Assembly (NCBI RefSeq): GCF_000018865.1
Contig: NC_010175.1
Coordinates: forward strand, 3,100,001 to 3,164,000
Length of the DNA stretch: 64,000 bases
Reading direction: 5' to 3'
Origin: Chloroflexus aurantiacus J-10-fl
GTDB taxonomy: Bacteria > Chloroflexota > Chloroflexia > Chloroflexales > Chloroflexaceae
The notes under the pieces are model-generated. The model was given only the letters and a program-made list of their open reading frames with translations. It did not search any database and was not told where the DNA came from. The position numbers and the translations under genes were made by a program. Of the stretch, positions 5,080 through 61,078 are shown piece after piece; position 1 is the first letter of the stretch, and every line of letters begins with the position of its first letter.

Positions 5080-5289
5080 TCAGGCATTGGTACGCCGTAC
5101 CCATTCTAACATGCGCTGCCACCACGTCCGCTCGCGGTTCGACCGCTTCGCCACACGCTCTAGTTGCTCACGTTCGGCATCGCGGTTCGACCGCTTTGCC
5201 ATACGAATTAATCGCTCACGTTCGGCATTACGGATCAGATCACGTTGGTGGATTTCAGCCGCAGCCAATTCTAACCAGGTATCTCCCAT
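5080..5289 (-). CDS. Small charged protein with internal repeat
   Basis: Hypothetical protein of 69 residues with no recognised family. The middle contains two similar 18-residue units (ERERLIRMAKRSNRD and EREQLERVAKRSNRE), so it should be largely a basic, amphipathic helix, ending in a Trp-rich segment (WWQRMLEWVRR). The start is supported by GAGGAGGGT six to seven bases before the ATG. It is flanked by repeats on both sides and has no operon partner. Confidence 0.6.
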   Translation of the reverse strand: MGDTWLELAAAEIHQRDLIRNAERERLIRMAKRSNRDAEREQLERVAKRSNRERTWWQRMLEWVRRTNA

Positions 5290-5599: not shown

Positions 5600-6180
5600 C
5601 CGGCGCGTTCCCACCGGAAACCGCACATCGTGCCTGCTTCCAGCGTAGTATCGCCCCCTGAACCAGTGTGTAACAGCGGGAGTCGTCCTGGCCTGGCGGT
5701 TCCTGCCCCCAGCAGGGGCGGCGAGGGTGGGGCATGTCTATCCGCTCTGGAAGCGCGCGTCTCCAGCTCATCCTGGGAGCGCGTCTCCGGCGCGCTCCCA
5801 CCGGAAACCGCACATCGTGCCTGCTTCCAGCGTAGTATCGTCCCCTGAACCAGTGTGTAACAGCGGGAGTCATCCTGGCCTGGCGGTTCCCGCCCCCAGC
5901 GGGGGCGGGTGAGGGTGGGGGCGTTTCTGTCCGCCCTGGGAGCGCACGCCTCCGGCGCACTACGTAAACCGCAATCGTGCCTGCTTCCAGCGTAGTATCG
6001 CCCCCTGAACCAGTGTGTAACAGCGGGAGTCATCCTGGCCTGGCAGTTCCCGCCCCCAGCGGGGGCGGGTGAGGGTGGGGGCGTGTCTGTCCGCTCTGGA
6101 AGCGCGCGCGCCGCCGACGCGCTACTGATACCGCACATCGTGCCTGCTTCCAACGAGGTACCATCCCCTGAACCAACGCA
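5600..6180. repeat. GC-rich tandem repeat array 1
   Basis: Four imperfect units with starts near 5621, 5808, 5969 and 6131 (spacing about 160-187 bp). Each contains CCGCACATCGTGCCTGCTTC, a segment GAACCAGTGTGTAACAGCGG, the palindrome GCCCCCAGCGGGGGC and a G-run motif (G5-C-G3-TGA-G3-T-G4/5) at 5901-5921 and 6061-6081. The open frames through this region are by-products of the repeats. Related arrays occur at 34410-34800 and 57340-58520. Confidence 0.75.
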
Positions 6181-32979: not shown

Positions 32980-33597
32980 ATGACCACTGTTCGCCGCCTG
33001 GGGATTTATGGAGGTACGTTCGCCCCAATTCATTTCGGTCATCTCGCCATTGCCGAAGAAGTGCGCTGGGTCTGTGACCTTGATCAGGTTCTGATTATTC
33101 CGGCTGCTGCCCAGCCTCTAAAGCCGACCCACAGTGCTGCCCCCCATCACCGGTTGGCGATGGTCAGGCTGGCCTGTGCCGGGAATGCTGCACTGATTCC
33201 CTCGCCGCTTGAATTGGAACGACCACCACCCTCGTATACCATCGATACGCTCCGCATTTGTCAGGAGCGCTATGGTGTTGGAGTGCATCTCACCCTTATC
33301 GTTGGTGCCGATGCTGCCGGCGACCTGCCCCGCTGGCGCGATCCGGATCAGATTGCCCGTATCGCCCATCTGGCAGTTGTTGAACGGCCCGGGCATCTCT
33401 TCGATCCGGCAACCCTGCTTGCTGCCGTGCCCGCTTTCACTGGTCGGATAACGGTCATTAAGGGGCCTCAACTTGCCATCTCAAGCACCGATCTGCGCCA
33501 CCGCCTTGCCACCGGTCGTCCGGTACGCTACCAGTTGCCAGACGCCGTTCTTGATTACATTACTCGCCATCGCCTGTATCAAGCCGGGGAAGCATGA
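32980..33597 (+). CDS. nadD: Nicotinate-nucleotide adenylyltransferase
   Basis: Enzyme of 205 residues that joins ATP and nicotinate mononucleotide to form deamido-NAD in NAD synthesis. It has the nucleotidyltransferase motif [18 protein letters not shown] with the HxGH-type site and the C-terminal [10 protein letters not shown]. Length is typical. The ribosome site is weak. Its stop overlaps the rsmG start (ATGA). Confidence 0.93.
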
Positions 33598-34310
33598 CCA
33601 ATAGCACTGCCCATCTGCTCAGAAAAACCACCGCTGATTGGGGTCTGTCGCTGAACGATCACCAACTGGCGCAGTTTGAACGCTATCTGGACGAGCTGAT
33701 GACCTGGAACGAACGCTTTAACCTGACTGCCGTTCGTGACCGGGCTGCGATGGTTCGCCGGCATCTGCTCGACTCGCTCTGGTTGGCCAGGGTCTGGGAA
33801 ACACCACCGGATAGTTTGATCGATATTGGGAGCGGTGCCGGCTTCCCGGCGCTGCCGCTCAAAATCCTCTATCCTGCGCTGCCGGTTACTCTGGTAGAGG
33901 CTACCGGCAAAAAGGCCACGTTTCTGCGTCACGTCATTGATTGCCTTCAGTTGCACAATATTCGAGTGTTAAACGAGCGCATTGAAACCGTCGGCCAAAA
34001 CCCCACCGAACGCGAACACTATCAGGTGGTGACTGCTCGTGCCGTCGCCGAATTACGGGTGTTGCTCGAATACGCCTTGCCACTCTTGCGCCTCGGCGGG
34101 CATCTGCTTGCTCCCAAAGGGCGGCATCCAGAAGTAGAAATTGCTGCTGCCCAGAATGCCCTCGCCCTGCTTGGTGGTGAAGTCAGCGCCTGCCTGCCGG
34201 TCGAGATTCCTGATGAAGAGCCACGTAGTCTGGTGATTGTAACCAAAACTGCTCCTACTCCCAACCGCTTCCCCCGCGCCGTTGGCATCCCGGCGCGCCG
34301 GCCTTTGTAG
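33594..34310 (+). CDS. rsmG: 16S rRNA (guanine-527-N7)-methyltransferase
   Basis: Enzyme of 238 residues that methylates G527 in 16S rRNA using S-adenosylmethionine. Motifs: [27 protein letters not shown] (cofactor loop) and [21 protein letters not shown]. Length matches the family; the last ~15 residues are Pro/Arg-rich. Translationally coupled to nadD by a 4-bp overlap. Confidence 0.94.
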
Positions 34311-34409: not shown

Positions 34410-34800
34410 CCCTGGGATCGCACACCTTCAGCTCGCTCAGCACCTGGAAGCGCATGCATTGCCGAACCTCGCCAACCCATTGACTCCCGCCCCCAGCGGG
34501 GGCGGGCAGGAGTGGGGGCAGAATCCCCTGGGAGCGCACACCTCCAGCTCGCTCAGCACCTGGAAGCGCATGCATTGCCGAACCTCGCCAACCCATTGAC
34601 TCCCGCCCCCAGCGGGGGCGGGCTGGGGTGGGGGGCAGTATCCCCTGGGATCGCACACCTCCAGCTCGCTCATCACCTGGAAGCGCATGCATTGCCGAAC
34701 CTCGCCGACCCATTGACTCCCGCCCCCAGCGGGGGCGGGCTGGGGTGGGGGGCAGAATCCCCTGGGAGCGCGCGCCTCCGGCGCGCTCTGCACCTGAACC
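34410..34800. repeat. GC-rich tandem repeat array 2
   Basis: Three to four units with about 118-bp spacing just downstream of rsmG. Each has CTGGAAGCGCATGCATTGCC, CCATTGACTCCCGC, the palindrome GCCCCCAGCGGGGGC and a G-rich tail (G5-C-G3-CT-G4-T-G6). The last unit switches to the GCGCGCGCCTCCGGCGCGCT type seen in array 3. The open frames across it are repeat-derived. Confidence 0.75.
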
Positions 34801-48708: not shown

Positions 48709-51165
48709 GTGACGCTCAACCCCACCCGTATCGGAAAGGCTATCGGTATTACCGCCGGCGCACTTGCGGCGTTGGCCGGTATTGGTGCAATCACAGCGTT
48801 ACGCCGTCCTCTCCCCCGTACCGGCGGTCGTATCAGGCTACCCGGCCTGCGCGCAGCGGTTGAAGTACGTCGTGACCGCTGGGGTATTCCTCATATCTAC
48901 GCCGAACACAACGACGACCTCTTCTGTGCACTTGGCTATGTTCACGCCCAGGATCGTCTCTGGCAAATGGAGCTGCATCGCCGGATTGGGCACGGTCGCC
49001 TGGCAGAGATTGTCGGGCCGGCAGCCCTCGATTCTGACCGTTTCATTCGCACCCTGGGCTTTAGCCGCCTGGTGCAGCGCGAAGTCTCGCTGCTCGATGA
49101 CGAGACCGCGACGCTGATGACCGCCTATCTGCGCGGCGTGAATGCCTGTATCGATCAGACCACTCATCGCCTACCACTCGAATTTACCATTCTCGGCATT
49201 CAGCCCCAACCGTGGGAACTGACCGATTTGCTGGTCTGGCCGAAAATGATGGCACTCACGCTGTCGAGTAACTGGATGCAAGAGTTGTTGCAGGCGCAGA
49301 TCGTCGCTCTGGTTGGGGTGGAGCGGGCCATTGCATTGCGCCCTCGTTATCCAGAAGATGGTCCACTGACCGTGCCGGCGGATGCTCACTACACACCTGA
49401 TCTCGGCGCGGCTGCGTTGCAGTTGGCCAGTGACGCGGCTCTCTTCACCGGTGAAAATGAGACGCCGCAGGGTTCAAACGCCTGGGTTGTCTCCGGGCAA
49501 CGTACAACGAGCGGTCGCCCGTTGTTAGCGAATGATCCCCATCTCAACCTTTCGCTCCCCAACCTCTGGTATCAGGTTCACCTGGAGGGCGGTGATTTTC
49601 ACGTGGCGGGGGCGACGATTCCGGCCACCTGTGGCGTGATTATCGGCCACAACCGTCGCATTGCCTGGGGACTCACGAACGCTCGCACCGATAATCAAGA
49701 CCTCTTCATCGAGCAGTTTGATGCCGCTGATCCGCTGCGGTATCGCTGGCGCGACGAATGGCTGACTGCCGAGGTGGTACGCGAGACGATCCACGTCAAG
49801 GGGCAGACTGAACCTACGGTCATCGATGTCCGTATCACGCATCACGGCCCAATCATTGATCCGGTGGCCGGTGCGTTGCGCGGTGAACCGACCACAACCG
49901 ATACCACGACGCAGGCACTGGCCCTGCGCTGGACCGCCCTTGATCCCTCGCCAACCCTTACGCGAGCTGTGTTCAGGCTCAACCGCGCTCAGAACTGGGA
50001 TGAATTTCGGGCGGCCCTGCAAGACTGGGATGTCCCCCCGCAGAATGTGGTCTATGCCGACATCGACGGTCATATTGGCTACTGCCTGGCCGGGCGCCTG
50101 CCGATTCGCCGACAGAGCGACGGTTCGTTACCGGTACCCGGCTGGAGCGGCGAGTACGAATGGGCAGGCTACATTCCGTTTGTCGAATTGCCCAGCCAGC
50201 TCGATCCGCCGGCTGGTGCTCTGGTCACTGCCAACCACCGGATTATCGATGAGCGCTACCCGACCAGCGCTCCGATCCGTGGTCTCTGGCTCAATCCCTA
50301 TCGCGCCCAGCGCATTCAGGCATTGCTTGATGAACACAAACAACACGACGTGCGCAGTTTTGCCCGAATCCAGGGCGATGTGGTCTCGTTGCCCGGCAAG
50401 GCCCTGGTCGAACAGGTCGCTCGCTTACAGCTCGAACCCGGCATGGAGCAGCGCGTTCGCGATCTGTTTGTCACCTGGGATGGTCACCTGCACCCCGAAA
50501 GCGTCGGTGGAGCGATCTATGAGGGACTGCGTTACCACTTGCTGCGCATTGTGTACCAGGAAATCAGCGATCTCTTTCAGGCACCGGCTGCGCTGGGGTC
50601 TTTCAGCGTTCTGCCGGCCAACATCTATCTCGAATGTGCCTTGCCAACCGTCCTGGCGCGCATGGCCAGCCAGCCACTCGACCAGCCTGATGCATGGCTG
50701 GGTCAGGGCCGCAGTTGGGGCGGTGTCTTGCGGGCGGCACTGGGGCGGACCGTGGCTGAACTTACCGAACGGCTCGGCGATGACCCCAACCGCTGGCAGT
50801 ATGGCCGCTTACACACCCTGACCCTCCGCCATCCCCTGGGCAGTGTGCCGGCGCTTACCCCGCTCTTCAATCGGGGGCCGTGGCCGATTGGTGGCGATCT
50901 CGATACCGTCAACCACTGCTACCTGCCGCGCGATAATGCCGGCATGAAAATTACCAATGGGGTGTCGGTACGCTTCATTTTTGATCTGAACGATTGGGAT
51001 AACTCGCGTGCTATTCTTCCCGGCGGGCAAAGCGGCCATCCGGCCAGCCCGCACTACGCCGATATGATTGCAGCCTGGCGGGCCGGCGCGTATCATCCGC
51101 TCTTATGGAGCCGCCCGGCGGTTGAACGCCATTCGACACAGGTGCTGACCTTACTTGCCGACTAA
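48709..51165 (+). CDS. Penicillin acylase family protein
   Basis: N-terminal-nucleophile amidase of 818 residues, made as a precursor that cleaves itself into two chains. The catalytic Ser of the beta chain is Ser256 in PQGSNAWVVSG, followed by LLANDPHLNLSLPNLWYQVHL and ITHHGPII, typical of the family. Substrates of relatives include penicillins, acyl-homoserine lactones and other amides; which applies here is unknown. The N-terminal hydrophobic stretch (AIGITAGALAALAGIGAITAL) is a signal or membrane anchor. Its last ~20 codons form part of the 246-bp triplication. Confidence 0.88.
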   Translation: MTLNPTRIGKAIGITAGALAALAGIGAITALRRPLPRTGGRIRLPGLRAAVEVRRDRWGIPHIYAEHNDDLFCALGYVHAQDRLWQMELHRRIGHGRLAEIVGPAALDSDRFIRTLGFSRLVQREVSLLDDETATLMTAYLRGVNACIDQTTHRLPLEFTILGIQPQPWELTDLLVWPKMMALTLSSNWMQELLQAQIVALVGVERAIALRPRYPEDGPLTVPADAHYTPDLGAAALQLASDAALFTGENETPQGSNAWVVSGQRTTSGRPLLANDPHLNLSLPNLWYQVHLEGGDFHVAGATIPATCGVIIGHNRRIAWGLTNARTDNQDLFIEQFDAADPLRYRWRDEWLTAEVVRETIHVKGQTEPTVIDVRITHHGPIIDPVAGALRGEPTTTDTTTQALALRWTALDPSPTLTRAVFRLNRAQNWDEFRAALQDWDVPPQNVVYADIDGHIGYCLAGRLPIRRQSDGSLPVPGWSGEYEWAGYIPFVELPSQLDPPAGALVTANHRIIDERYPTSAPIRGLWLNPYRAQRIQALLDEHKQHDVRSFARIQGDVVSLPGKALVEQVARLQLEPGMEQRVRDLFVTWDGHLHPESVGGAIYEGLRYHLLRIVYQEISDLFQAPAALGSFSVLPANIYLECALPTVLARMASQPLDQPDAWLGQGRSWGGVLRAALGRTVAELTERLGDDPNRWQYGRLHTLTLRHPLGSVPALTPLFNRGPWPIGGDLDTVNHCYLPRDNAGMKITNGVSVRFIFDLNDWDNSRAILPGGQSGHPASPHYADMIAAWRAGAYHPLLWSRPAVERHSTQVLTLLAD

Positions 51166-51199
51166 GAACATCTGTGGCAACGTGATACTGGTTCATAGT

Positions 51200-51394
51200 A
51201 TGGTGAATGACCAGCTTAACAATCTTTTCCGGCTTATTACCGCCTGTACGTCGCGCCCGGTGTGGCTGGTCGGTGGTGCAGTCCGAGAGCTTTTAACCGG
51301 GCATCAGCCGGTTGATCTCGATCTCGCGATTGACGGGAGTGGCCTTGCTTATGGAGCCGCCCGGCGGTTGAACGCCATTCGACACAGGTGCTGA
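51200..51394 (+). pseudogene. Truncated duplicate of the nucleotidyltransferase 5' end (unit 1)
   Basis: Starts at the same ATG position as the real gene and follows VWLVGGAVRELLTGHQPVDLD, then runs into duplicated acylase 3' sequence and stops. Only the first part of the catalytic domain is encoded, so it cannot be functional alone. Confidence 0.7.
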
Positions 51395-51445
51395 CCTTAC
51401 TTGCCGACTAAAGACATCTGTGGCGACGTGATCCTGGTTCGTGTT

Positions 51446-51640
51446 ATGGTGAATGACCAGCTTAACAACCTGTTCCAGCTTATTACCGCCTGTACGTCGC
51501 GCCCGGTGTGGCTGGTCGGTGGTGCAGTCCGAGAGCTTTTAACCGGGCATCAGCCGGTTGATCTCGATCTCGCGATTGACGGGAGTGGCCTGGCTTATGG
51601 AGCCGCCCGGCGGTTGAACGCCATTCGACACAGGTGCTGA
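51446..51640 (+). pseudogene. Truncated duplicate of the nucleotidyltransferase 5' end (unit 2)
   Basis: As the previous unit, exactly 246 bp further on and nearly identical to the start of the real gene. It ends in the same acylase-derived tail and stop. Confidence 0.7.
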
Positions 51641-51691
51641 CCTTACTTGCCGACTAAGGACATCTGTGGCGACGTGATCCTGGTTCGTGTT

Positions 51692-53149
51692 ATGGTGAAT
51701 GACCAGCTTAACAACCTGTTCCAGCTTATTACCGCTTGTACGTCGCGCCCGGTGTGGCTGGTCGGTGGTGCAGTCCGAGAGCTTTTAACCGGGCACCAGC
51801 CGGTTGATCTCGATCTCGCGATTGACGGGAGTGGCCTGGCGCTCGCGCAGGCGCTGGCCGATGCCGGCCAGGGCACCTTCGTGCTGCTTGATCGCGAACG
51901 TGATACCGGTCGCGTCGTGCTGCCTGATAGCATCGTGATCGACTGCGCCCGCCTGCGGGCAACCGATATTGTGTCCGATCTTTACCTGCGCGACTTTACC
52001 GTAAATGCGCTGGCACTCCCGTTGGATGCAGCACGCTGGGGCGACTGGAGTGCATTACTTGATCCACTCGACGGGCAGGCCGATCTTGCCGCACGCCGCT
52101 TGCGCCCGTGTACCCCGACCAGTCTACGCGATGACCCGTTGCGCGTGATTCGGGCCGGTCGCTTTCGCGCCACCCATCAGCTCATCCCTGTGCCCGAACT
52201 GGTGACCCCTGCGCGTGAGGTAGTCCCATTGCTATCAGCGATTGCCGTTGAACGCATCCGTGACGAATTGCTCAAGCTCTGCGATGGGTTAGCTGCCGCT
52301 GCCGGTTTGCGCTTCCTGGATCAGGTCGGCGCACTCACCGCCATCTTCCCCGAACTGGAAGCGGCACGTACCTGCGATCAGCCGCACGTCCATTTTCTGC
52401 CGGTGTTGGCCCATATGCTGGAAACAGTTGCCGCGCTGGATTGGCTGATTGACAACGGCGAGCCACCTGTTGCCGTCCAGACCCATCCCCACCTGGAACG
52501 CATACTCCCGTTTGCCGATCAGTATCAGGCTCTTCTCCACCAACGGCGCGGCAATGTCCGGCGGGCAGCCCTCTTAAAACTGGCAGCCCTGCTCCACGAT
52601 AACGCCAAACCGCAGACGAAAGTCAGCCATCCCGATGGTACAGTAACCTTCTACGGCCATCAGGGGTTGGGTGCCGAGCGCGTTTTGATCATCGCTCAGC
52701 GCTTACGGCTCAGTCGGGCCGATACCGCATACCTGGCCTGCATTGTTCGTGAACATATGCGTCCAGGCCAAATGCGGAGTGGTGGTCAACTCACGGAACG
52801 GGGGATTGCCCGCTTCTTCCGTGATACCGGCGATGCCGGGCCTGACATTCTCTTGCACGAACTGGCCGACCATCTGGCAACCCGTGGCCCCTGGCTTGAC
52901 CCAATGGCGTGGCGGGAACATCTCCATTGGGTGGCAATGATGCTGAACCATTACTGGAACGCGCCGACCCCACCGCCGCCACCATTACTGCGTGGCGACA
53001 CCCTAATGGCTGCGTTGGGGATCAAACCGGGGCCGGAAGTAGGTCGCCTGTTACGCTTAATCCACGAAGCGCAACTGGCGGGAGAGATTCATAGTCCTGA
53101 AGAGGCGATTGCGCTGGCTCGCACACTACAGACCACCGATCACGGATAA
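51692..53149 (+). CDS. CCA tRNA nucleotidyltransferase / poly(A) polymerase family protein with HD domain
   Basis: Class II nucleotidyltransferase of 485 residues. The head has the GG...DxD site (WLVGGAVRELL, VDLDLAIDG), followed by IVIDCARL, RDFTVNALALPL and RDDPLRVIRAGRF for nucleotide and tRNA handling, and a C-terminal HD domain (LLKLAALLHDNAKP, FYGHQGLGAERV). It probably adds or repairs the tRNA CCA end. The ATG at 51692 is in the third repeat unit and has no strong ribosome site; it may depend on the upstream duplicated starts for ribosome traffic (inference). Confidence 0.88.
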   Translation: MVNDQLNNLFQLITACTSRPVWLVGGAVRELLTGHQPVDLDLAIDGSGLALAQALADAGQGTFVLLDRERDTGRVVLPDSIVIDCARLRATDIVSDLYLRDFTVNALALPLDAARWGDWSALLDPLDGQADLAARRLRPCTPTSLRDDPLRVIRAGRFRATHQLIPVPELVTPAREVVPLLSAIAVERIRDELLKLCDGLAAAAGLRFLDQVGALTAIFPELEAARTCDQPHVHFLPVLAHMLETVAALDWLIDNGEPPVAVQTHPHLERILPFADQYQALLHQRRGNVRRAALLKLAALLHDNAKPQTKVSHPDGTVTFYGHQGLGAERVLIIAQRLRLSRADTAYLACIVREHMRPGQMRSGGQLTERGIARFFRDTGDAGPDILLHELADHLATRGPWLDPMAWREHLHWVAMMLNHYWNAPTPPPPPLLRGDTLMAALGIKPGPEVGRLLRLIHEAQLAGEIHSPEEAIALARTLQTTDHG

Positions 53150-55574: not shown

Positions 55575-56786
55575 ATGAAACGACGAGAGTTTCTGCGTGG
55601 CGCCGCAGCAGGCGTTCTCGGTGGCCTTGGTCTGACTCTGGCAGCATGTGGTCAGCCTCCGGCTGTGACCAACCCACCCACTTCGGCGCCTGCCCAGCCG
55701 ACGGCAGCAGGTGGTGAACAACCGACAGCAGCAGCAACCACGGCCCCGGCACCGGCAACGCAAGCCCCCGCTCAGGGTTCGTCAATGCCGGCAGTTGAAT
55801 GGCGTATGGGCACGAGCTGGCCAATCGCGCTTGATACCATCTATGGTGGTGCAACAGTGCTGGCCGAGCGGGTTGCCGAGCTGTCGAATGGCATGTTCAA
55901 AATCACCACCTTCCCCGCTGGTGAACTGTTCCCCGGTCTTGAAGTACTTCAGAACGTTTCGCAGGGTACCGTCGAGTCGGGCCACACCGCACTCTATTAC
56001 TATGTCGGTCTCGATCCGGCGTGGGCGTTTGCGACTTCATTGCCATTTGGCTTGACTGCCCAACAGCAAAACTCGTGGCTCTACCATGGTGGTGGTGAAC
56101 AGGCCGTCAACAAGCTGGGTGAGAACTTTGGTGTGATTAGCTTTGCCGCCGGTAATACCGGTACCCAGATGGGTGGCTGGTTCCGTCGCGAGATCAACAC
56201 TGTTGCCGATATGCAGGGTCTCAAGATGCGCATCCCCGGTCTGGGAGCCCAGGTCATGCTACGGCTCGGCGTAGTTACGCAGACCCTGCCCGGTGGTGAA
56301 ATCTTCCAGGCGCTCTCGACCGGTGCCATCGATGCTGCCGAGTGGGTCGGTCCATACGACGACGAGAAACTTGGCTTGCCTGATGCAGCCGAGTTCTACT
56401 ACGCGCCGGGTTGGTGGGAGCCGGGTCCTAGCCTGCACGCAGTCTTCAATCTCGATGCCTGGAACAAGCTGCCGAAGGAGTACCAGAATTTCCTTCGGGT
56501 TGCAGCATGGGAATCGAACATGAACATGCTCGCCAAGTACGATGCGCTGAACAACGATGCTCTTGAGCGTATTGTTGCCAAGGGTAAGCAGTTGCGCGTC
56601 TACAGCGACGAGATTCTCAGCGCGGCCCAAAAGGCAGCATTCGAGTTGTATGCTGAGTATGAAAGCAGCTCGGCAGCCTTCCGCGAGATCTTACCCGGTT
56701 GGAACGCTTTCCGCCAGAAGATCCAGCGCTGGCACCAGACCAACGAGCTGCCATTCAATAATTTCGTTAAGAACAACCCCGTTTAA
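55575..56786 (+). CDS. TRAP transporter binding protein (DctP family), Tat-exported lipoprotein
   Basis: Solute-binding protein of 403 residues of the DctP/TakP class, which hands carboxylates to a DctQM membrane pair. The signal has a Tat motif (RREFLRG) and a lipobox (LAAC), followed by a Pro/Ala/Thr linker and the binding domain with [37 protein letters not shown] and the conserved Arg in KMRIPG. TakP-like members bind 2-oxo acids. Its dctQM partners lie 3 kb away on the opposite strand. A good terminator follows. Confidence 0.88.
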
Positions 56787-57339: not shown

Positions 57340-58520
57340 CCCCTGGGAGCGCGCGCCTCCGGCACGCTCGCCACCTGCACCAGCCTGCTATCCCCTGGGA
57401 GCGCGCGCCTCCGGGGCGCTCCCCACTGGAACCAGCTCGCGACAACGATAGCCATTCCGACACCGCTGGTTCCCGCCCCCAGCGGGGGCGGGTGAGGGTG
57501 GGGGCGTGTCTGGAGGCACTGGGAGCGCGCGCCTCCGGCTCACTCACCACCTGCACCAGCCTGCCATCCCCAAGGAGCGCGCGCCTCCGGGGTGCTCCCC
57601 ACTGGAACCAGCCCGCGACAACGATAGCCATTCCGCCCCCGCTGGTTCCCGCCCCCAGCGGGGGCGGGTGAGGGTGGGGGCGTGTCTGGCGGCACTGGGA
57701 GCGCGCGCCTCTGGCGTGCTCGCTACCTGCACCAGCCTGCCATTCCCCTGGGAGCGCGCGCCTCCGGCACGCTCCCCACTGGAACCAGCTTGCGACAACG
57801 ATAGCCATTCCGACACGGCTGGTTCCCGCCCCCAGCGGGGGCGGGTGAGGGTGGGGGCGTGTCTGGCGGCACTGGGAGCGTGCGCCTCCGGCGTGCTCAC
57901 CGCCTGCGCCAGCCTGCCATCCCCTGGGAGCGCGCGCCTCCGGCGTGCTCAGTGCCTGCGCCAGCCTGCCATCCCCTGGGAGCGCGCGCCTCCGGCGCGC
58001 TCCCCACTGGAACCAGCTCGCGACAACGATAGCCATTCCGCCCCTGCTGGTTCCCGCCCCCAGCGTGGGTAGATGAGGGTGGGGGTGTGTCTGGAGGCAC
58101 TGGGAGCGCGCGCCTCTGGCTCACTCACCACCTGCACCAGCCTGCTATCCCCTGGGAGCGCGCGCCTCCGGCGTGCTCGCCACTGGAACCAGCTCGCGAC
58201 AACGATAGCCATTCCGCCCCCGCTGGTTCCCGCCCCAGCGGGGGCAGGTGAGGGTGGGGGTGTGTCTGGAGGGACTGGGAGTGTGCGCCTCCGGCGTGCT
58301 CCTCACCGGCACCAGCCTGCGCCAGCGGGAACCATCCGGCACCGGCAGTTCCCGCTCCCGGTGGGCTATGCATTACCCATAACTTAAATACTGCATTGCC
58401 CGCGTGCCGGAGCGGGTCGGGGGCGTGATGACGGGCGTGCTCCCCAGCCGGGTGCTGGGAGCGCGCGCCTCCGGCGCGCATGGTGCCGGTACCAGTGCTG
58501 GAGGGAGGAGCCAGGCGCAA
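57340..58520. repeat. GC-rich tandem repeat array 3
   Basis: At least five complete and several partial units of about 170-180 bp. Each has GGGAGCGCGCGCCTCCGG, CACTGGAACCAGCTCGCGAC, ACGATAGCCATTCCG, the palindrome GCCCCCAGCGGGGGC and G5-C-G3-TGA-G3-T-G5 (57484-57504, 57660-57680, 57837-57857, with variants near 58066 and 58240). Apparent reading frames here are in repeats on both strands and have no start sites or family match, so I treat the region as non-coding. Confidence 0.8.
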
Positions 58521-58630
58521 GCTCCCGCCCCTGGCGGCATTCACGGACGGCCAGGATAGATGAACGAATACAACGTCTACCCTATCAGGAAGCCCTGGAT
58601 CAAATGTCTGCCCTCCCCTCTCCCACCCCC

Positions 58631-58905
58631 GCTATGCATTCCCCATACCTGGTGTCAACCACGTGCGTATCAGCGGGGATGATCGCTATGGATGCTGTTG
58701 TGGGCGACTGGCCCGGTGATGGTGCGCAGCTCCAGCCGTGCTATCACGTGTCGGATGGGTTGCCTTACGCACGCATCATGTGCGTGGCGCAGGGTTTGGC
58801 GTGCGGCGGCCATGCTGCCGCGCCAGCCGTGCTCACGATCCGGCGCGTGTTACACCGTTACCCATCCTGGTCACGGCGGTACTGGATGTGCTCGTGACAA
58901 TCATC
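58631..58905 (+). repeat. Repeat core shared with 6219-6470
   Basis: Shares GTGTCAACCACGTGCGTATC and the whole following ~250 bp with the region after array 1, including the GCGGCCATGCTGCCGCGCC palindrome. Both lie at the edge of a GC-rich array, so array and core may have spread as one unit. Confidence 0.55.
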
Positions 58906-59667
58906 GAGTCAGTCAGGCATACATGCGATACCTGGGCGTAGCGGTGTTGTTGCACTTGGTTCGTGCCTGCGCACCAGCGGCCACGGCCAGCACCTGACAG
59001 CGGTGCGAGGATGCCGGCACGTGGGCTGGAAGCCCGCGCCACGGAGAGTGCTTGCAGCCTGGCCTAACGCAGCGCGATATGTGGGTAATGCATAGCCCGC
59101 TGGGGACGGGTGAGGGTTGGGCGTGTCGCATACGATTGCTGGACACAGCAGCGGACATCACCAGATGCCAGCCGGTAACCATCGTCGCTCCGTGGGTGGC
59201 TGCATCATCCAGTCCTGATATTGGTGGGGCGCACGGACGTGCGCCCCTGCCGGGCACGGTCCTGACATCCCTGGTAGCCCGTGACACGACCAGCGCATCA
59301 TACCGGCTACTGGTTGACATGTGGGTAATGCCATAGCCCGCGCCGCAGGAGCGGGGCCGGAGGTGAGGGCGTTCAGCGTATTGCTAGTGCCTATCCTTTG
59401 TGCGACACATGGGTAATGAAAAGCAGTGGGGGCAGGTTAGGTTGGGATGGGGGTGTGGCGCGAGGCACTGCTGGACGCAGCACTATCTATCATCCCCGTT
59501 TGTCTCTCATCACGCTGGCACAGCTCCTGCATGCGACTGCCCGTGAACCAGTAAATCCGTCTCTGCGGAACCACCGGCGGCTTATTGCTGGCAGTCCTGG
59601 CAGTCAGTACGGCTTATGACACCCTGAATATACCCGACATCTTCAAGATTTGGCATGGCTGATTTTA
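58906..59667. other. Non-coding, repeat-derived gap
   Basis: Contains the GGCTGGAAGCCCGC motif (near 59029), three GACATGTGGGTAATG-type segments (59078, 59318, 59406) also seen at 6986, and GGGCCGGAGGTGAGGGCG at 59354. No supported gene. Confidence 0.4.
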
Positions 59668-59743: not shown

Positions 59744-61078
59744 CTACTGGCCGAAGGAGATCGCCGGCAGATAGAGGGCCAACTGCGGGAAGAAGATCAA
59801 AACAACGACAATCGTAAGCTGGATCGCAATGAACGGTACAACACCCCGGTAAATATCGGCAGTTGTAATGCCTGGAGGGGCAACACCGCGCAGGTAGAAG
59901 AGAGCGAAACCAAATGGTGGTGTCAGGAACGAGGTCTGCAAATTAGCGCCGAGCAACACACCAAACCATATCAGGTCAAATCCGAGAGCCTGCGCTACTG
60001 GAACGAAGAGCGGGATCACAATAAAGCAAATCTCGAAGAAATCGATGAAAAAACCGAGAAAGAAGACGATAAGCATGCTGACAACCAGGAAGCCCCAGGC
60101 ACCGCCGGGCAGGTTCGCCATCAGATCGAACACAAACTTATCGCCGCTCAAGGCGCGGAACACCAGGGCGAATGCGGTCGAGCCAATTAAAATGAAGAGA
60201 ACCATCGTTGTGGCGCGCATCGTGGCATCGCAAACCGCCACGAAATTCTTCCAGGTCAATCGTCGATTAGCAGCCGCCAGCAACGTTGCCCCAAGTGCGC
60301 CAACAGCCCCCGCCTCCGTTGCCGTCGAGATACCGAAGAAAATAGAACCGAGTACGGCGACAATGAGCAGAAGCGGGGGAATCATCACCTGCACTACTCG
60401 TTTCGCCAGGGCTGCACCACTGATCGAACGTGCCGATAATGGAAGTGCTGGTGCCATTTCTGGCTTCAGTAAAGCAACAATCCAACAGTAAAATGCCAGC
60501 GCCGCTGCCAGCAAAAGTCCTGGTATCAACGAGCCGAGAAAGAGTTTGCCAACCGAAACACCGATCTGGTCACCGAGAACCACCAGAACGACCGAAGGTG
60601 GAATAATCTGCCCTAGTGTACCGGCAGCACAAATCACGCCACAAGCCAGCTCTTTGTTGTAGTTGTAGCGCAACATAATAGGCAGCGAAATCAATCCCAT
60701 TGCCACCACTGTTGCGGCAACAACGCCGGTAGTGGCTGCCAGCAAAGCACCTACAGCGACAACCGCAATCGCCAGGCCACCCCGCACGGGGCCGAAGAGA
60801 ATCCCCATCGTATCGAGTAAGTCCTCTGCCAGGCCAGATTTTTCCAGCATTGAGCCGAGGAAGATAAAGTAAGGGATTGCCAGCAGGGTGTAATTTGACA
60901 TCACGTTGAAGATACGTGATGGCATCGCCCGAATGATGATGGGGTCAAAGATGCCAAGTGAAACGCCGATGATACCGAAGACAATCGCTGTTGCCCCCAG
61001 CGAAAATGCAACCGGATAGCCGATCCCGAGAATGACCAGCGCTCCAAGGAACATCGTGGGTCCGAGCCAGTCGTACAT
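59744..61078 (-). CDS. TRAP transporter large permease (DctM family)
   Basis: Membrane protein of 444 residues with about 12 hydrophobic segments, the ion-driven translocation subunit of a TRAP uptake system. Motifs include YTLLAIPYFIFLGSMLEKSG, CAAGTLGQIIPPSVVLVVLG, STATEAGAVGALG and the C-terminal QTSFLTPPFGFALFYLRG typical of DctM. GGAGG precedes the ATG. It follows dctQ by 14 bp. Confidence 0.93.
   Translation of the reverse strand: MYDWLGPTMFLGALVILGIGYPVAFSLGATAIVFGIIGVSLGIFDPIIIRAMPSRIFNVMSNYTLLAIPYFIFLGSMLEKSGLAEDLLDTMGILFGPVRGGLAIAVVAVGALLAATTGVVAATVVAMGLISLPIMLRYNYNKELACGVICAAGTLGQIIPPSVVLVVLGDQIGVSVGKLFLGSLIPGLLLAAALAFYCWIVALLKPEMAPALPLSARSISGAALAKRVVQVMIPPLLLIVAVLGSIFFGISTATEAGAVGALGATLLAAANRRLTWKNFVAVCDATMRATTMVLFILIGSTAFALVFRALSGDKFVFDLMANLPGGAWGFLVVSMLIVFFLGFFIDFFEICFIVIPLFVPVAQALGFDLIWFGVLLGANLQTSFLTPPFGFALFYLRGVAPPGITTADIYRGVVPFIAIQLTIVVVLIFFPQLALYLPAISFGQ

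Follow-up and report, generated by a model that had tools for sequence, protein, structure and literature searches.

Hoyne and Maher are said to have carried out earlier work on an intrastrand triplex motif of Escherichia coli. The E. coli motif related to the one described here (TM_ECO or PIT; consensus CCCTCNCCC N3-6 GGGNGAGGG N3 GGGNGAGGG) gave NMR signals indicating a triplex and no quadruplex in vitro, no stable triplex was found in vivo, and the same work ties triplex motifs to instability (Holder et al. 2015, PMC4666352). By the ITxF rule stated there, a class II motif consists of three stems in succession, each of 6-15 nt, joined by loops of 1-6 nt, and is built from G.GC, A.AT or T.AT triplets with at most one mismatch. 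Five inverted pairs of two motif types occur in E. coli MG1655, and Chloroflexi are not mentioned in the main text of that paper (0 occurrences). Among the papers listed by our literature searches, none described triplex motifs in MITEs or Chloroflexi. A second class of bacterial hairpin repeats, the REP elements, is defined by GTAG or GTGG located 0-2 nt before a hairpin with a stem of 7-20 bp and a loop of 2-5 nt (PMC6006769), and GTAG repeats have been reported in Chloroflexi (PMC3733652). For Chloroflexus aurantiacus itself, the cited sections of the genome paper mention repeats only at oriC, where one is AT-rich, and in a method reference, and neither palindromes nor quadruplexes (PMC3150298).

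The window analyzed here is a stretch of 64,000 nucleotides of C. aurantiacus J-10-fl, a photosynthetic bacterium of hot springs, positions 3100001-3164000 of chromosome C1 (a single contig of 5,258,541 bp). An earlier note on this DNA had described three arrays of G-run motifs, and these arrays are real. Allowing ≤2 mismatches, the motif GCCCCCAGCGGGGGC has 11 matches in the window, every one on the + strand and inside the three arrays (Table 1), whereas 100 dinucleotide shuffles gave 0.27 matches on average and at most 4; the arrays are thus far from a chance occurrence. Tandem repeats were called by TRF at 5802-6175 (period 160), 34410-34796 (period 117), and 57343-57950 plus 57924-58320 (period 176). 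As the note had stated, array 2 directly follows rsmG, and array 3 lies between two TRAP genes, which converge on it. Its placement of array 3 at 57340-58520 missed the end of the array, since the repeat extends past 58520, with a further copy interrupted at 58365 by a TIR-bounded stretch of 730 bp and a second half-motif at 59096. The arrays are also more than a repeated G-run motif: a second hairpin repeat, CTGGGAGCGCGCGCCTCCGGCGCGCT, threads through them with 14 window matches (≤3 mismatches; 0.00 expected). A scan of the window against Rfam at gathering thresholds gave no match. Elsewhere in the window, we observed a 246-bp tandem repeat (51102-51840; three copies, 97% matches), which extends into the start of ORF 51647, a match to poly(A)-polymerase / CCA-enzyme domains, and two copies of a 48-bp repeat at 5132-5228.

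Table 1. Arrays, motif copies, neighboring genes and associated elements (window positions, except where C1 is given)
Feature	Position	Strand	Details
Array 1	5702..6081	+	degenerate TM2 ~5702-5733; intact TM2 5889-5921, 6049-6081; 160-bp tandem unit
rsmG (GidB)	33594..34310	+	upstream neighbor of array 2
Array 2	34410..34796	+	117-bp units 3' of rsmG; TM2 34486-34518, 34602-34634, 34719-34751; REP-like hairpin 34762-34787
DctP	55575..56786	+	TRAP solute-binding protein; upstream neighbor of array 3
Array 3	57343..58365	+	176-bp units, REP-like hairpins interspersed; TM2 57472-57504, 57648-57680, 57825-57857
Array 3, remaining TM2	~58053, ~58228; 58351-58365	+	two degenerate copies; first half of a further copy
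Type TM2 copy	57472..57504	+	C-arm 57472-57480, loop AGC 57481-57483, G-arm 57484-57492
Type TM2 copy, 3' part	57493-57495; 57496-57504	+	spacer TGA; mirror tail GGGTGGGGG
REP-like hairpin	57976..58001	+	CTGGGAGC-GCGCGCC-TCC-GGCGCGC-T; 1 of 14 window matches
TIR-bounded stretch	58366..59095	.	730 bp, inverted CTATGCATTACC at ends; separates two half-motifs where array 3 ends
TM2 half-motif	59096..59121	+	CCCGCTGGGGACGGGTGAGGGTTGGG, after the 730-bp insertion
DctM	59744..61078	-	TRAP large permease; convergent neighbor of array 3
Other CTATGCATTACC-bounded elements	C1:94779-95130, 387338-387648, 3404926-3405391, 3430407-3431103, others		examples outside the window

The core of the G-run motif, which we call TM2, spans 33 nt and reads CCCGCCCCC - AGC - GGGGGCGGG - 2-3 free nt - GGGTGGGGG, i.e., a 9-bp hairpin followed by a tail that mirrors the 3' arm of the hairpin, with a T opposite the C of that arm. 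The earlier note had read it as a palindrome followed by G5-C-G3 and further G-runs. Both parts are there, with the first G5-C-G3 being the right arm of the palindrome and no separate element; similarly, the TGA which it placed between G-runs occurs in some copies, others having TTA, CTG, CCG or GTA. Across the 115 distinct sequences among 123 copies in the stretches examined, mismatches per site amount to 0.032 in the C-arm, 0.025 in the G-arm, 0.035 in the tail, 0.052 in the loop and 0.499 in the spacer; because copies were picked at ≤3 mismatches without constraint on the spacer or on two of the loop bases, the difference from the spacer is overstated, and the comparison of arms and tail is a fair one. 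The mirror order itself was seen in leave-one-out triplets over perfect 9-bp hairpins, with 303 distinct triplets in mirror order vs 5 in direct order, the 303 deriving from related TM2 copies and representing no independent events. Facing bases follow the same plan, an arm C meeting a tail T in 22/23 cases, A meeting A in 12/13 and G meeting G in 254/266. A looser scan for mirror tails (spacers of 1-5 nt, one misfit) separates the two orders poorly, yielding 152 mirror, 87 direct and 78 both among 2,044 hairpin bins, and 4 mirror and 2 direct among 822 in spaced stretches. A sister family, TM1 (CCTCCCCCC..GGGGGGAGG NNN GGAGGGGGG), shows the same hairpin and mirror tail in other letters.

With consecutive lengths of 9/3/9/2-3/9 nt, TM2 falls within the class II stem and loop ranges of ITxF; eight of its nine consensus triplets are G.GC, and the ninth, T opposite C-G, is the single mismatch. 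Judged from its sequence, TM2 thus has the layout of the bacterial class II intrastrand-triplex motifs (TM/PIT). It shares with TM_ECO the order of C-arm, short loop, G-arm, 2-3 nt and G-tail, as well as an intergenic location, many near-identical copies and a patchy occurrence among close relatives. Another common trait is the inverted pairing of two motif types, represented in C. aurantiacus by TM1-TM2 pairs such as those at 4819975 and 1151909. Unlike the E. coli motif, TM2 has in its stem a C-G inversion facing a tail T, outside the allowed triplets, and resides in tandem arrays of composite units that include REP-like hairpins. No strict copy of the E. coli consensus occurred in 577 kb of targeted stretches. 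T may be one of the bases favored opposite a C-G inversion in purine-motif triplexes, and a C-interrupted stem with a T exactly opposite puts the triplex code of the purine motif to a natural test.

Compensatory changes within the stem were considered and found to be weak. Of 56 non-consensus stem pairs in C. aurantiacus, 36 are breaks, 17 are G-T and 3 are Watson-Crick. Since the changes mostly leave bases unpaired, no selection to maintain pairing is visible, and the copies would be either young or unconstrained.

The earlier note had described the arrays as able to form G-quadruplexes (G4). If G4 formation explained the arrays, the G-rich strand would fold into a G4 and affect transcription or replication. 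Most TM2 copies indeed resemble known G4 repeats in having four G-runs with short loops: the G3+N1-7 rule is satisfied by all 64 strict TM2 copies in the stretches examined and by 7 of the 11 window copies, the copies at 5705, 34489, 58056 and 58231 being without four G3 runs. Moreover, the 577 kb of targeted stretches contain 221 matches to the rule (77 overlapping strict TM motifs), vs 16 in 400 kb of spaced stretches. With its quadruplex option, ViennaRNA assigns the RNA form of TM2 -30.6 kcal/mol as G4 vs -20.9 kcal/mol as plain hairpin and leaves TM1 unchanged; these are RNA parameters under which a triplex cannot be scored, so the preference does not decide between the folds, and it counts in favor of the G4 as a rival fold. 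However, constraint is not confined to the G-runs. The C-arm, which plays no part in a G4, is conserved as much as they are, the conserved unit includes the mirror order, and the sister family TM1 never meets the rule (0/30 strict copies); a G4 is thus not the defining feature of the repeat. Nor is there an overall bias in strand or sense, as detailed below. Altogether, a G4 may form as a competing fold, and we consider it improbable that G4 formation accounts for the arrays.

A genome-wide count of the motif with a comparison of strands, proposed in the earlier note, gave 56 forward and 59 reverse matches of TTCCCGCCCCCAGCGGGGGCGGG at ≤2 mismatches (reversed control, 0), that is, an abundant motif and no strand bias overall. 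The full TM2 33-mer had 45 + 42 = 87 matches at ≤3 mismatches (control, 0), and we estimate that the C. aurantiacus genome holds roughly 90-120 copies. At the same threshold, the 33-mer was found 0 times in seven other Chloroflexus genomes and twice in one of 23 other genomes, and TM1 was found in 11 of the 31 genomes, including 5 of the 7 other Chloroflexus (two with a single copy). The presence of TM2 at >50 sites in C. aurantiacus and at none in seven other Chloroflexus may serve as a natural experiment on the claim of instability. The exact TM2 pattern retrieved 18 stretches from genome_contigs, all titled Chloroflexi or Oscillochloris (15 from MAG L.E.CH.5, 1 from MAG L.E.CH.39_1 and 2 from Candidatus Oscillochloris fontis), a collection which may omit the C. 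aurantiacus genome itself. Carriage by viruses was not seen, with 0 exact matches in viral_contigs.

With ORFs called mechanically from 200 codons upwards, the genomic context of TM2 is predominantly intergenic, 54 of 56 clusters not falling within an ORF. A location of 16 of the 56 clusters between convergent genes, compared to 7 between divergent genes, is what might be expected if the neighboring genes had kept the motif as a transcription terminator or RNA-stability hairpin. The remaining evidence speaks against such a role: none of the 123 copies is followed by TTTT within 12 nt, the window shows no Rfam match at gathering score, and the motif is absent from relatives at the two sites that were checked. 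Between tandem genes, the G-strand of TM2 has the sense orientation in 13 cases and the antisense orientation in 16, an even split which lends no support to a function on the sense strand. The related E. coli motif is likewise described as having no terminator activity, according to earlier work cited in the paper (PMC4666352). We regard conservation as terminators or stabilizing hairpins as very improbable, and nothing that we observed would support a host function for TM2.

Comparison with sister species indicates that the two window sites checked, DctP-DctM and rsmG, are insertions relative to the relatives. DctP and DctM are 2,957 bp apart in C. aurantiacus, vs 89-456 bp, measured between the matched ends, in the 6 relatives with loci that extend to both genes. 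A strict TM/REP pattern, by which 3 features are marked at one C. aurantiacus site and 4 at the other, was found in 0 of 14 orthologous loci (seven for each site; 12 reach the next gene, six for each site, and one per site stops at a contig end). Pairwise alignments likewise left the array segments without a counterpart in the relatives. In another Chloroflexus genome, the gap between DctP and DctM contains a partial duplication of both gene ends.

As for the second repeat of the arrays, a 25-mer of CTGGGAGCGCGCGCCTCCGGCGCGCT has 94 forward and 150 reverse matches genome-wide at ≤3 mismatches (control, 0). The repeat forms a REP-like hairpin with a 7-bp stem and a TCC loop, within the limits set for REP stems and loops, and lies within 160 nt of 72 of the 123 TM2 copies; the two share their orientation in 113 of 115 pairings. 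When each cluster is represented by one copy, TT immediately precedes TM2 in 29 of 54 clusters, approximately 25 of which share, by eye, the linker CAGC.C.CG.CAGCGGGAGCCAT-CCGGCACCG...GTT. TM2, REP-like hairpin and linker thus constitute a dispersed composite of ~150 bp, and the periods of 117, 160 and 176 bp in the window arise by tandem duplication of this composite.

Such a close partnership raises the possibility that the arrays are chiefly REP hairpins of the REP/BIME type, moved by a RAYT (Y1 transposase), with TM2 as passenger. In addition to the linkage with TM2, the repeat shares with these systems a short tag, a 7-bp stem and a 3-nt loop as well as intergenic clusters, and 12 copies in the stretches examined have a mid-stem C-G pair replaced by A-T. 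The genome also encodes an intact 184-aa RAYT-like Y1 transposase, the sole intact one, within the locus C1:3877127-3880369, with dense arrays to either side made of the hairpin GGAGTGCGGCAGCCATGCTGCCGC (GGAGTGCGGCAGC, GGAGTGC) of a plan similar to the GGGAGCG repeat. Against this stand the tag, which is GGAG at 1 nt rather than the known GTAG or GTGG, and the RAYT locus itself, whose 3,243 bp lack the GGGAGCG pattern (≤7 mismatches) and thus show the transposase linked to a repeat of its own; nor does TM2 carry such a tag. Outside C. aurantiacus, the TM2-bearing MITE of L.E.CH.5 described below has no such REP, and O. fontis gave 0 matches to the GGGAGCG REP at ≤2 mismatches. We judge this explanation possible, at clearly less than even odds. 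The intact RAYT as the mover of TM2 was rejected, its locus containing neither TM2 nor the GGGAGCG REP; another Y1_Tnp match in the genome contains a stop and, by ORF reading, lies among insertion-sequence remains.

A vehicle for TM2 was found in MAG L.E.CH.5. Here, TM2 sits between 18-bp TIRs (CAATACCTTGCAAATAAG), adjoining an inverted TM1-like hairpin, and the TIR has 95 forward and 102 reverse matches genome-wide at ≤3 mismatches (control, 0). To avoid selecting for TM2, elements were chosen by the TIR alone, taking the best 30 of 197 TIR matches; these comprised 16 distinct bounded elements of 119-293 bp, the rest being single TIRs or recurrences of the same element. TM2 was present in all 16 elements from these best 30 (0-3 mismatches in 15, 6 in one). 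Nine of the same 16 have exact 10-bp target duplications, many with a central CTA, and three have 9/10, the others scoring 8, 8, 6 and 5, vs 0 of 240 unrelated flanks reaching ≥9/10. In L.E.CH.5, TM2 is thus the body of a MITE that has transposed with 10-bp target duplications. TIRs, length and duplications are those of non-autonomous TIR elements; unlike in these, the interior consists of two triplex-type hairpins and a parent transposase was not found, as the 4 DDE_Tnp_1 matches in this draft assembly, in which many TIRs are at contig ends, had no TIR pair in their loci. In O. fontis, one of the two TM2 copies is enclosed by a different TIR pair, AGGGCATGTGCAAAGTC, with no clear target duplication; matches to this second TIR number 121/121 in O. 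fontis and 0 in C. aurantiacus (≤2 mismatches). Four elements of this abundant O. fontis MITE (242 TIR ends) hold other large hairpins and no TM motifs. The C. aurantiacus copies, in contrast to those of L.E.CH.5, are not TIR-bounded, inverted-repeat scores around them being no higher than in re-paired flanks; there is hence no TIR excess at these copies, and the MITE route is demonstrated for the relative alone. Carriage by MITEs also sets TM2 apart from the E. coli motif, which is reported without a mobile association in the cited parts of PMC4666352. The L.E.CH.5 element provides a concrete vehicle for a class of repeats reported without one and suggests how such repeats spread between sites.

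Taken together, we favor, with a probability of about 0.7, the interpretation that TM2 is a triplex-class motif with the G4 as a rival fold, a selfish or neutral repeat rather than a regulatory signal, and MITE-borne in a relative; for its composite, slippage and landing sites, we infer the following. The 3' arm of the hairpin and its own mirror image would allow a single strand to fold into a purine-motif triple helix. An ancestral TM2 may have joined the REP-like hairpin and linker in C. aurantiacus to form the ~150-bp composite, which would then have dispersed through the genome. Single-stranded DNA exposed at replication could then fold into a triplex or quadruplex and promote slippage and tandem duplication, giving rise to the arrays, and TM2-type hairpins may further act as landing sites for other elements. 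A bolder proposal would treat intrastrand-triplex hairpins as a class of mobile DNA, with the inverted motif pair as the ancestral transposing unit and the fold both driving local amplification and marking landing sites for other elements. In that case, the unit would be intact as the MITE of L.E.CH.5, and C. aurantiacus, perhaps also E. coli, would retain its decayed remains as pairs and single motifs. We consider this broader proposal speculative and rather unlikely.

Candidates for elements that landed in hairpins exist in C. aurantiacus. Elements with inverted CTATGCATTACC ends, ~300-1,040 bp long, form 23 pairs with several interior types and are frequently located midway in GC-rich hairpins; one of them separates the two TM2 half-motifs at the end of array 3. 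In the targeted stretches, 43 of 109 CTATGCATTACC element ends abut half a hairpin, compared to 233 of 20,000 random positions. Duplications of 7-11 bp flank 8 of the 23 elements vs 4.1% of unrelated flank pairs, with the pairing, which took the best left partner for each right end, favoring the detection of duplications; the window element itself had no target duplication.

Several further observations concern orientation and other repeats. By chromosome half, TM2 clusters are oriented 18-/9+ before 2.7 Mb and 7-/20+ after (Fisher p 0.006), a pattern spotted by eye before testing and reported as an observation only. Similarly, 39 of 54 TM2 clusters lie on the G-skew-positive strand (p 0.0015; 0.0005-0.02 across nine boundary choices), as do 38/56 REP, 3/15 TM1, 26/44 TATGCATTACC and 129/236 long ORFs. 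The GC-skew turning points, at ~1.87 and 4.6 Mb, are at odds with the origin near dnaA (Caur_0001) given in the genome paper (PMC3150298), and leading and lagging strands can therefore not be assigned for TM2. At C1:2112628-2115496, a TATGCATTACC element of 239 bp is repeated in tandem about a dozen times. Lastly, minisatellites with a period of ~31 bp, consisting of TM1 half-motifs, lie immediately upstream of single TM2 copies at C1:3622407, 3348132 and 1141361.
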